Shown: positions 19,776 through 51,022 of the stretch, piece by piece
Position numbering within the stretch: position 1 is the stretch's first letter
How the letters are laid out: every line of letters begins with the position of its first letter
Assembly (NCBI RefSeq): GCF_000014445.1
Contig: NC_008531.1
Location: 527,001 to 591,000 of the forward strand
DNA length: 64,000 nucleotides
DNA from: Leuconostoc mesenteroides subsp. mesenteroides ATCC 8293
GTDB lineage: Bacteria; Bacillota; Bacilli; Lactobacillales; Lactobacillaceae
Reading direction: 5' to 3'
Program-made: the position numbers and the translations under genes
The notes under the pieces: generated by a model
Seen by the model: the letters and a program-made list of their open reading frames with translations, nothing else
What the model was told of the DNA's origin: nothing
Database searches by the model: none

Positions 19776-20036
19776 CATATAGTAAAACGTTGAGTAGAAG
19801 AGTAGTTCATTTTAAATTTAGAAGAGAATTTGCGGTTGCTGTGAGCAAATAGTTAAATTGAACGAAACACATCTATGAGTATAAAGCTGAACAAAGTAAG
19901 CTTTGTCGGAAGTGTCCGTTATCACATAACAGTCTTTGACTTATTGAGATGCTACTAGTGATAGTAGCATAACAAAGAGGTGGAACCGCGATGAAACGCC
20001 CTCTAAATACATTTCTTGTATTTGGGGGCGTTTTTA
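19776..20036 (+). promoter_or_regulatory. T-box riboswitch, complete module
   Basis: Loop-E strands AGTA (near 19805) and GAA, an AGAAGAGA internal motif and distal-loop sequences form Stem I. Stem III is ATGCTACTA/TAGTAGCAT (19949-19970). The T-box AGGTGGAACCGCG is at 19978-19990 and the terminator AACGCC...GGCGTT with T-run at 19995-20035. The specifier region reads GAAACACA. Taken one base after GAA the codon is CAC (His) followed by a purine; taken directly it is ACA (Thr). The bulge TGGA would pair with a U73 tRNA, which is unusual for His. Specificity is therefore unresolved. It controls the amino-acid ABC transporter downstream. Confidence 0.9.
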
Positions 20037-29267: not shown

Positions 29268-29303
29268 GTTACAATGCAAGTATAGAAACGCATGGAGATA
29301 GAC

Positions 29304-29996
29304 ATGACTAAGATACTTGTTGTTGATGATGAAACGGCAATTGCAACGCTGCTGCAATACAATTTGCAACAGAATGGTTACGAAGTAACAGTTGCATCGG
29401 ATGGTTTATCCGCTTATCAAAAGGCAAAAGAGCAACAATTCAATGCAATATTGTTGGATCTAATGCTGCCAGAAATGGATGGCATGACCGTTTTAAAGCA
29501 GTTACGTCAAGATAAAGTTAGCACACCAATAATTTTGGTGACTGCAAAAGGGGATGAGTTTGATCGTGTGCTTGGCTTAGAATTAGGTGCAGATGATTAT
29601 ATCACTAAGCCTTTCAGCCCTCGAGAAGTTGTAGCAAGACTAAAAGCTGTATTACGTCGTTCACAAGTTAGTACAGATACCAACAAAACGGACGAAATGG
29701 TTATTTCTATACAAGATTTGCTCATCAATGATAGCAAAAAAACAGTTATGAAAGAAAATATTGTTTTGTCCTTAACGCCACGGGAATATGATTTATTATT
29801 ATATTTTGCACAGCGATTGGGACGTGTAATTGATCGTGAAACAATTTTGACGGCTGTGTGGGGATATGAATATACTGGCGAAAGCCGTATGGTAGATATG
29901 CATATCAGTAACTTACGAGATAAGATTGAGTCAAATCCAAAGGCGCCTAAAATATTGAAAACAGTTCGCGGATTTGGATATACTATGACGAATTAG
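29304..29996 (+). CDS. phoP: response regulator PhoP-like (OmpR family)
   Basis: 230 residues. Receiver domain with acidic pocket VDDE and phospho-Asp in ILLDLMLPE (about residue 53), switch Thr and Lys (TKPFSPREV), then an OmpR-type winged helix (GESRMVDMHISNLRDKIE). Start at 29304 with GGAGA at 29294; the in-frame ATG at 29292 overlaps that site. Its location with pstS, phoR and pstSCAB identifies it as the phosphate-starvation regulator. Confidence 0.9.
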   Translation: MTKILVVDDETAIATLLQYNLQQNGYEVTVASDGLSAYQKAKEQQFNAILLDLMLPEMDGMTVLKQLRQDKVSTPIILVTAKGDEFDRVLGLELGADDYITKPFSPREVVARLKAVLRRSQVSTDTNKTDEMVISIQDLLINDSKKTVMKENIVLSLTPREYDLLLYFAQRLGRVIDRETILTAVWGYEYTGESRMVDMHISNLRDKIESNPKAPKILKTVRGFGYTMTN

Positions 29997-49600: not shown

Positions 49601-49960
49601 ATGCGTCAAAATACTATTTTAGAAAACGTTACATCAGCACAATTACGTACTGACATTCCTGCTTTCCGTGCAGGAGACACTGTTAAGGTGTATGCCAAGA
49701 TCGTTGAAGGTTCACGTGAACGTGTTCAGTTGTTTGAAGGTGTTGTTATTAAGCGCAAGGGCGCTGGCATCCAAGCAACTTATACAGTTCGTAAGATTTC
49801 TTCAGGTGTTGGTGTGGAACGTACATTCCCATTACACTCACCACGTGTTGAAAAGATTGAAGTTACTCGCTTTGGTCAAGTACGCCGTGCAAAGTTGTAC
49901 TACTTGCGTGCTTTGCAAGGTAAGGCAGCTCGTATTAAAGAACGTCGTCGCGACGTTTAA
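49601..49960 (+). CDS. rplS: 50S ribosomal protein L19
   Basis: 119 residues, the standard length. [27 protein letters not shown] and [13 protein letters not shown] are unmistakable. AGGAGAA serves the ATG. It stands alone here; the usual trmD and rimM neighbours are not beside it. Confidence 0.98.
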
Positions 49961-49966
49961 GGTATG

Positions 49967-49998
49967 TAAAAGGTATTTCTTCGGAGATGCCTTTTTTT
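49967..49998 (+). terminator. terminator of rplS
   Basis: An AAAGGTATTTC arm pairs with GAGATGCCTTT around a TTCG tetraloop, then T-run. Confidence 0.85.
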
Positions 49999-50100
49999 GT
50001 TAATTATTCCTTAAAAAGTTATTTACTTCACTAAATGTTATGTCATTGTCGCGTAATACTTTTGTCAAAATCCAGACACATTATTACGAATGAATTAGTC

Positions 50101-50106
50101 TATAAT
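50101..50106 (+). promoter_or_regulatory. -10 box of candidate sRNA
   Basis: TATAAT with predicted start near 50113. The -35 is poor, so an activator may be needed. Confidence 0.6.
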
Positions 50107-50112
50107 AGACAT

Positions 50113-50249
50113 ATACTCAAATAACATTTGAGTTTCATTACTTCCCCCAGTAATGCATCAATCAGCTCCCCCAATTGTTGATTGATACACCGATAACTTA
50201 TGTTATCAACCCCCTGACCAACCCCCCTCTTCGGTCAGGGGTTTTTGTT
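50113..50249 (+). ncRNA. candidate small regulatory RNA with C-rich loops
   Basis: About 135 nt between a -10 box and a Rho-independent terminator. Five hairpins: ACTCAAAT/ATTTGAGT (50115-50133); CATTACT/AGTAATG with loop TCCCCC (50136-50155); ATCAATCA/TGATTGAT with a 14-base loop containing CTCCCCC (50157-50186); GATAAC/GTTATC (50192-50207); and the terminator CCCCTGACC/GGTCAGGGG with a 13-base loop containing six C (50211-50241) before TTTTTG. Three exposed C5-C6 runs can pair with Shine-Dalgarno sequences, as UCCC motifs do in staphylococcal Rsa and Listeria LhrC RNAs. There is no plausible ORF. Targets are inferred. Confidence 0.75.
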
Positions 50250-50272
50250 TGCAAAAAAGTATTGAAATGTAA

Positions 50273-50308
50273 TAAAAAACCGCTAACGCTGTCGTTAACG
50301 GTTTTTTA
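50273..50308. terminator. bidirectional terminator, ends yslB-like gene
   Basis: AAAAAACCG and TAACG arms pair with CGTTA and CGGTTTTTT around CTGT, with one internal mismatch. Confidence 0.85.
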
Positions 50309-51022
50309 TTATTTAAAAGGGGACTGTGAGTTTTCTGTAGATGTTGGCACATTAAATGGATCAATTTCTTCACCAGATAAAGCACTTAACCCAGAACTTT
50401 CTTCTGTAGGCATGACGGTTTCATCAAACTTAAAAGCTAACAAGGAGTCTGTGATAGACTGTTCACGTGAAATATCGTCGTTATCGCGTACTTCCACAAC
50501 GGTAGCTTTTTCTGTTGTAGCATGTGTTCGATCTAAGAAAGAATCTCGTGCAGCTGCACGTTGCCTAAGATCATCAACATTAACCGTTTCAGATAGGTCA
50601 GTGATTACTTCAAAAGAAACGCCTTCGTTTTTCTTCAAATACTTGAAATTGGCTTCTGCAATGGCACCAGTTTGTACTTCAAGCTGTTGTGCTAAAAAGC
50701 CGGCCTCTAAACTAAAATCAGCATTTTTATTTAACGCAAGACGTTGTCGCACTAAATCGCCAGTTAATTCCCAACGTTGGTTCTTGCTATTTTGTGATTT
50801 AATTTCTAAATCACCAAAGGCAGCGTTGGCAAAAAACTCTTTTACTGTCGACAGTGTGTCAGTTGGAAACTGACGTGCAATTTCTTTACCGGCCCAGTAT
50901 AAAATATGCGGATAGTCTTCTTGAAGTAAATTCTTTAAGAGACCGTCCCGTAGCAAACTGAGTGCAAAACTGTTTACTTGAAAGTTTGTTTGTAAAATTT
51001 TATCGTAATCGTTGATATCCAT
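50309..51022 (-). CDS. YslB family (DUF2507) protein
   Basis: 237 residues. The first half carries the DUF2507 signature (LLQEDYPHILYWAGKEIARQFP near residues 32-53). The family is found near murI/rdgB in Firmicutes and its function is unknown. The C-terminal 80 residues are acidic and Ser/Thr-rich, longer than typical members and probably disordered. The start at 51022 is chosen because a TATAAT (51047-51052, minus) begins transcription just ahead of AAAGGA; longer in-frame starts lie upstream of that promoter. Confidence 0.78.
   Translation of the reverse strand: MDINDYDKILQTNFQVNSFALSLLRDGLLKNLLQEDYPHILYWAGKEIARQFPTDTLSTVKEFFANAAFGDLEIKSQNSKNQRWELTGDLVRQRLALNKNADFSLEAGFLAQQLEVQTGAIAEANFKYLKKNEGVSFEVITDLSETVNVDDLRQRAAARDSFLDRTHATTEKATVVEVRDNDDISREQSITDSLLAFKFDETVMPTEESSGLSALSGEEIDPFNVPTSTENSQSPFK

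Follow-up and report, generated by a model that had tools for sequence, protein, structure and literature searches.

We present here the analysis of a small RNA (sRNA) locus lying in a 64,000-nucleotide (nt) stretch of Leuconostoc mesenteroides subsp. mesenteroides ATCC 8293 (assembly GCF_000014445.1, contig NC_008531.1, positions 527,001 to 591,000 of the forward strand), further called the window and numbered from its first letter. The candidate sRNA, about 135 nt long, occupies positions 50113-50247, as indicated by its fold, by covariance-model matches and by the composition of its paired alignment cells; it is assigned to the + strand because G-U cells (65) far outnumber A-C cells (14). 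Its start was inferred 7 nt past a -10 box TATAAT (50101-50106, + strand), with which TATAAT, TATACT or TATTAT is aligned in relatives. No good -35 element was found for this promoter, which is also absent from the output of a consensus promoter scan. The original prediction, made from the letters of the DNA, had proposed an sRNA of five hairpins and a terminator whose C-rich loops block Shine-Dalgarno (SD) sites. Folding of 50101-50249 gave five hairpins with a minimum free energy of -47.2 kcal/mol (dinucleotide shuffles -20.5 ± 3.1, n = 200, none as low, z -8.5) and, together with a terminator scan, agrees with that layout. The coordinates proposed for the -10 box and for four C-runs, TCCCCC (50143-50148), CTCCCCC (50166-50172), CCCCC (50210-50214) and six C (50222-50227), were all confirmed. 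In its own genome the sRNA is single-copy, with one full match and eight remaining matches not exceeding 33 nt. The Rfam scan of the window returned only a T-box and tRNA at gathering score, leaving the sRNA without a match, and a search of 49950-50330 up to E 10 gave 20 sub-threshold matches to other families, none of them to LhrC. Plasmid and phage sequences gave no match to the sRNA at blastn sensitivity, and its mobile origin was rejected on this ground.

All hairpins are on the + strand. Hairpin 1 (50115-50133) folds alone, and all of its seven pairs are double-changed once the second genus described below is added to the alignment. Hairpin 2 (50136-50155), carrying the loop UCCCCC (50143-50148), has a near-invariant stem with none of seven pairs double-changed in 34 sequences. 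Double changes were seen in 8/8 pairs of hairpin 3 (50157-50186; loop UCCCCCAAUU, 50167-50176), which retains its C-run loop in most members, and in 6/6 pairs of hairpin 4 (50192-50207), which is missing from several genera. The terminator hairpin (50211-50241), identified by the terminator scan, by folding and by double changes in 9/9 pairs, has the loop AACCCCCCUCUUC and is followed by a U-run. The C-run at 50210-50214, described earlier as starting unpaired, is no free loop; apart from the first C it forms the 5' arm of this stem. The six-C terminator loop is present in the window as predicted and is conserved in just 4 of 18 aligned sequences, GCCCUCU being found in nine of them. Each of 43 distinct sequences from Leuconostoc and the second genus folds individually into five hairpins, and C-runs nearly always occupy loops 2, 3 and 5. 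Other Leuconostoc genomes were checked for the stems and C-runs, whose lack there was to speak against the sRNA, and both are conserved.

The double changes were compared with shuffles and slid controls in alignments A3 and A4, both fitted to a model and hence biased toward its structure. In A3, 30 of 37 pairs were double-changed (shuffle mean 24.2; 0/500 reach 30), with 271 double-change cells (shuffles 73.6; slid controls at most 69), and A4, of 34 sequences, contained 356 such cells (shuffles 102.8; slid controls at most 85). A structure-free alignment of Leuconostoc with L. fallax gave 4 double-changed pairs (shuffles 1.8; 18/500) and 9 cells (3.1; 0/500). Stems 1, 3, 4 and 5 therefore vary with compensation and stem 2 is nearly constant; sequence constraint sits on hairpin 2 and not on C-runs generally. 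Some members depart from the common layout. One locus (L107) has a sixth hairpin 3' of the RNA. In both L107 and L080, hairpin 4 carries a C-run loop in addition to hairpins 2, 3 and 5, a hint that any hairpin may acquire a C-loop. In L100, loop 2 reads CUUCAA, loop 3 lacks a C-run and the terminator loop is still CCCCCC, a possible case of retargeting or decay.

A blastn search found the sRNA in 17 of 18 other genomes of the genus and in one neighbour genus. The covariance search with the five-hairpin model, suggested by the original prediction, was run with models R1, R2 and R3 built of 18, 30 and 34 sequences, respectively, the latter two without Listeria. Among 397 genomes of the family R1 matched 30, namely 19/19 of the window's genus (including the genome missed by blastn), the neighbour genus, nine of a second genus, g18, and one weak match that was rejected. 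In g18, probably Weissella, 28/28 genomes were matched at E ≤ 0.1. R2 matched 25 of 395 genomes of the order, and R3 matched 131 of 397 genomes of the family, across 17 of 40 genera. In the class-wide sample of 398 genomes, which includes at least three family members (three of the 21 entries listed), R3 matched one genome, the window's own. When 37 matches in 23 loci were inspected by eye, all except L151 had a C-run hairpin, mostly UUUCAUU..ACUCCYCC; that R3 match (genome G355), similarly to the R1 match in G194 (L081, E 0.007), is without a C-loop hairpin and looks false. The sRNA family is widespread in Lactobacillaceae and absent from Rfam. Several copies were found by R3 in genus g55. 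One genome of a genus other than the window's had six matches listed in the family-wide search and seven in the 20-kb stretch searched (L139, G391:C17:46000-65900), several of them as close pairs, which constitutes a strong local amplification.

The constant hairpin 2 contains what we call the anti-start element, GUUUCAUUACUUCCCC (50132-50147, + strand), made of the 5' arm and loop. This sequence, for which many lactobacilli have UUUCAUUUACUCCUCC, reads as the reverse complement of an SD rich in G followed, after a short spacer, by AUGAAA, extending in the window to AUGAAAC. CAU with a C-run within 10 nt was present in 83 of 88 distinct members and the stricter UUCAU form in 76 of 88 (mononucleotide-shuffle mean 4.2), counts that are descriptive and no independent proof, since the members were gathered with models containing the motif. 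Among sites of the pattern GGGG-N2-9-ATGAAA in the own genome, the strongest besides the RNA's own complement (-35.8 kcal/mol) is the start of a HlyD-like membrane-fusion gene, GGGGAAGUAUAUGAAAC, with -24.1 kcal/mol. The next one (-22.7) starts a frame of just 5 codons. As background, the same 17 nt of the hairpin-2 strand were paired with 61,344 segments of own-genome DNA outside 50001-50400, pattern-picked loci included, and of these 82 reached -16, 49 reached -17, eight reached -20 and none reached -21 kcal/mol. The product of this candidate target gene scores above the cut-off of Pfam HlyD_3, and the next frame reads like an ABC ATPase.

Orthologue conservation was examined for the HlyD-type gene only. 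It was matched in 13 of 19 genomes of the genus, and the 11 full-length orthologues were used, nine of which pair strongly with the RNA of the same genome. Among these nine, RNA ACUUCCCC is accompanied by target GGGGAAGU and RNA ACUCCCC by target GGGGAGU: four genomes with RNA ACUUCCCCC have GGGGAAGU...AUGAAAC (-24.1 to -26.2 kcal/mol), and five with RNA ACUCCCCU have GGGGAGU...AUGAAAC (-24.5 kcal/mol). Clade-matched pairs gave -24.1 and -23.3 kcal/mol and swapped ones -19.4 and -20.2, a loss of about 3-5 kcal/mol. These pairings suggest that the sRNA probably switches off the HlyD-type export-pump gene. The four genes of the window named earlier as possible targets rank 1st, 4th, 5th and 6th of its 62 coding sequences; the pairings, made via loops 3 and 5, are weak (-17.2, -16.4, -14.9 and -13.9 kcal/mol). 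Their high rank indicates that the right kind of site had been chosen, though the HlyD-type start site is a better candidate than any of the four.

Upstream of the promoter we noticed a direct repeat of the response-regulator type, TGTCAT-N5-CGTAAT (50041-50057, + strand, roughly -72 to -56 relative to the inferred start), which the original prediction had overlooked. In the alignment of 19 loci it forms a conserved island, YGTMAT-N5-YGTAAY, kept in relatives amid otherwise diverged upstream DNA. Possible further half-sites, TGTCAA and AGACAC, follow in the same 11-bp register (50063-50079, + strand), with similar letters in close relatives only. With at most one mismatch, TGTRAY-N5-TGTRAY occurs in 12/19 Leuconostoc loci (dinucleotide shuffles 0.32, max 2), 9/24 of g18 (0.29, max 2) and 0/40 of other genera, and TTYAYA-N5-TTYAYA in 23/40 of other genera (1.33, max 5), 7/24 of g18 (0.61, max 3) and 0/19 Leuconostoc, these counts not being independent as the loci are related. 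The window's own copy departs from TGTRAY-N5-TGTRAY at two positions. About 9 nt separate the end of the second half-site from the -10 box downstream of it in many of the other genera (by eye). Five Listeria-like copies have neither repeat.

The own genome encodes seven OmpR-type regulators above the family cut-off, one of which is YycF/WalR (405.7 bits, cut-off 340). In PMC4168254 the WalR/VicR consensus is given as TGTWAH-N5-TGTWAH and a strong VicR site as TGTAAT-N5-CGTAAT, and the latter sequence also forms the box at L068 and L069, two loci of Leuconostoc. At no more than one mismatch the consensus was found in 13/19 Leuconostoc loci, once at another position (shuffles 1.42, max 6). The best match ends 56-57 nt 5' of a conserved TACTC in 15/19 loci, and in three others, including the window, a second register ties. 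On the basis of these motifs WalR/YycF would be the first-ranked regulator candidate in Leuconostoc, proposed tentatively and at clearly less than even chance. The box pattern alone is nonspecific in the own genome, where 7 matches were counted for it and 7 for the reversed pattern (8 and 3 for a second form); one match lies 5' of a gene for a secreted protein whose end resembles a wall enzyme by eye and for which Pfam gave nothing. The Pho regulon was also considered as the regulator and set aside, as the TTTACA repeats upstream of a pstS-like gene differ in orientation and period. These repeats lie between an OmpR-type regulator gene (29286-29993) and the PstS-like gene at about 30153 (by eye), a pair which likely is a phosphate system.

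The original prediction had mentioned LhrC and RsaE as RNAs using similar motifs. LhrC (RF00616; LhrC1-5, Rli22 and Rli33-1) carries redundant UCCC motifs, depends on LisR and opens the 5' side of its stem A on the target (PMC4132741 and PMC8079631). In LhrC and in the window RNA UUUCAUU stands ahead of the C-run, so that the loop and the 5' arm can cover the SD and start codon, and both have the common order of a UUUCAUU..C-run hairpin, an ACUCC-UUUU stretch and a C-loop terminator. Also the control elements are similarly placed: PMC4132741 reports that LisR induction in Listeria needs bases -55, -57 to -59, and -72, -74 and -75, within which range the window's box is situated. LhrC has UCCC in its hairpin loop, linker and terminator loop; in the window RNA UCCC is present in loops 2 and 3, the terminator loop has six C followed by UCUU, and there is no UCCC linker. 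Unlike the window RNA with its five hairpins, LhrC has two, though simpler forms exist in other genera; the window's genome has one copy, and the Leuconostoc box is of different sequence. The window RNA gave no match to the Rfam LhrC model, either at gathering score or up to E 10, and by this score and by its hairpin number it falls outside LhrC membership. The earlier comparison was nevertheless apt, as R2 and R3 pick up LhrC copies, and the RNA is best read as belonging to an uncatalogued LhrC-like family, predicted to be functionally alike. Rfam also holds a model of RsaE. RsaE and further Firmicutes sRNAs with UCCC loops resemble the window RNA in this motif, which they direct against ribosome sites (PMC4132741); they differ in that the window has no such Rfam match. 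The csRNAs of the streptococcal CiaR regulon are alike in the direct repeat with N5 spacer and in SD and AUG complementarity, but their CiaR box is TTTAAG-N5-TTTAAG, placed 10 nt before the -10, and their pairing stretch lies between two stem-loops (PMC3091779). No CiaR box was found by eye in 50001-50100.

Taken together, the locus fairly likely encodes a free-standing, trans-acting LhrC-like sRNA, driven by a response regulator and blocking start sites, including that of the HlyD-type gene. Both conservation and covariation speak strongly for an sRNA that turns its C-loops against SD sites, as had been predicted. In the mechanism that we propose, an OmpR-family response regulator would bind the upstream direct repeat and activate the promoter with its weak -35, probably on envelope stress. 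The RNA would fold into hairpins displaying C-rich loops, of which above all that of hairpin 2 would contact the G-rich SD of the target mRNA. The 5' arm of hairpin 2 may then open and pair across the start codon (AUGAAAC), preventing ribosome loading. One target would be the HlyD-type membrane-fusion gene, with the ABC ATPase gene after it.

Several observations weigh against this reading. The number of double-changed pairs in A4, 30/37, is barely above shuffles (mean 26.7; 4/500 reach 30), the cell count and score standing out instead. Loop 3 has no C-run in L093, L096 and L100 and a shortened one in L091 and L106, and L100 lacks it in loop 2 as well. A genus member, L071, is without the box at the usual place, other genera have TTCAYA repeats in place of the Leuconostoc box, and the window's own box is two mismatches away from the WalR consensus. 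The co-change of RNA and target is a single coordinated event on the tree, SDs are G-rich in any case, and in two further orthologues, from genomes whose RNA has ACUCCCCU, the pairing is weaker (-17.5 and -8.8 kcal/mol). The pattern GGGG-N2-9-ATGAAA, picked with the hypothesis in mind, is hardly enriched genome-wide (29 sites, 24 in the reversed control), and for this reason we do not claim many targets.

The anti-SD letters of the loops, with loop 2 being ACUCCUCC in many genera and lactobacilli, could also belong to a general translation brake mimicking the 16S tail, which would hit many SDs weakly, HlyD being one among many; four G-rich start sites of the window within the top six of 62 would suit such a role. 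The C-run loops of the window's genus, however, fit GGGG better than AGGAGG, and the best coding sequence of the window reaches just -17.2 kcal/mol, and we find this explanation unlikely. Still less probable is that the C-loops bind a protein and the RNA acts as a sponge in the CsrB manner, its free stems and constant loops reflecting protein recognition. Similar loops repeated on varying stems are typical of sponge RNAs too, and LhrC was likened to them (PMC4132741), but hairpin 2 retains stem and loop alike, antisense to SD + AUGAAA, and co-changed mRNA pairing is not expected for a sponge. As for a regulatory leader, a 3' tail of rplS or a coding sequence instead of a free sRNA, the RNA does lie directly downstream of rplS in 17/19 genus loci, the other two retaining the downstream side alone. 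Yet a terminator-like site was found by the terminator scan 3' of rplS (49968-49995), the next gene is a convergent DUF2507 gene (Pfam), and single-base changes of C-run length seen in the alignment would break a frame. In the 14 loci of g18 viewed, an HtrA-like gene precedes the sRNA and a convergent gene lies on its other side, once after a further gene (names by eye). Because flanks differ in other genera, the RNA does not belong to any single gene as its leader or 3' tail; such an origin is very improbable.

The free-standing sRNA being the preferred reading, its resemblance to LhrC may still have arisen by convergence on C-rich loops and not by descent, to which we give slightly less than an even chance. 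R2 had only three out-of-family matches (E 3e-4 to 8e-3 per genome), each coinciding precisely with a match of the Rfam LhrC model (90-94 bits, gathering 110), one locus having another LhrC above gathering, and R3 scored five LhrC copies within 83 kb (E 1.5e-5 to 2.8e-4). This coincidence and the shared order of elements argue for descent. On the side of convergence, the window stays without an LhrC match up to E 10, the R3 class search matched nothing beyond the own genome, and the R2 and R3 values are modest and concern three genomes, about 4 chance matches being allowed for R2 at E 0.01 over 395 genomes. We suggest, as a speculative though conceivable history that is somewhat doubtful, that LhrC and the window RNA may come from one ancient Lactobacillales "anti-start" RNA, in which hairpin 2 would be a portable antisense to SD + AUGAAA of exported proteins beginning with Met-Lys. 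It would be driven by envelope-stress response regulators, with a box that differs from genus to genus and with free drift of the stems and of the number of hairpins.

With regard to earlier reports, the original prediction knew no described family of this layout in Leuconostoc, and we found none, judged by title or abstract start, among the 10-20 top-ranked sRNA papers on each of Leuconostoc, Lactobacillus, L. plantarum, Lactobacillaceae and Weissella. Likewise, the top-ranked literature results, in which subscription papers are mostly outside coverage, showed by title or abstract start no trans-acting sRNA family defined for the Leuconostoc/Weissella/Lactobacillus group. The analysis yields a family with members in 131 of the 397 genomes sampled, a model for its annotation, a promoter box that is conserved and, by name, one candidate target whose start site co-changed with the RNA. 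The results suggest that LhrC, known as a virulence-linked RNA of Listeria, has relatives in harmless food bacteria.

Some further features were noted. In L133 and L137 the LhrC-like RNAs adjoin a gene for a peptide-binding protein resembling oppA (by eye); for Listeria, oppA has been reported to be targeted by LhrC (PMC8079631). At 50271-50310, in the stretch that separates the sRNA from the convergent DUF2507 gene of the window, an inverted repeat containing runs of A and of T was seen by eye, a probable two-way terminator. Elsewhere in the window, a T-box leader (RF00230) was found at 19781-20006 with 126.7 bits.
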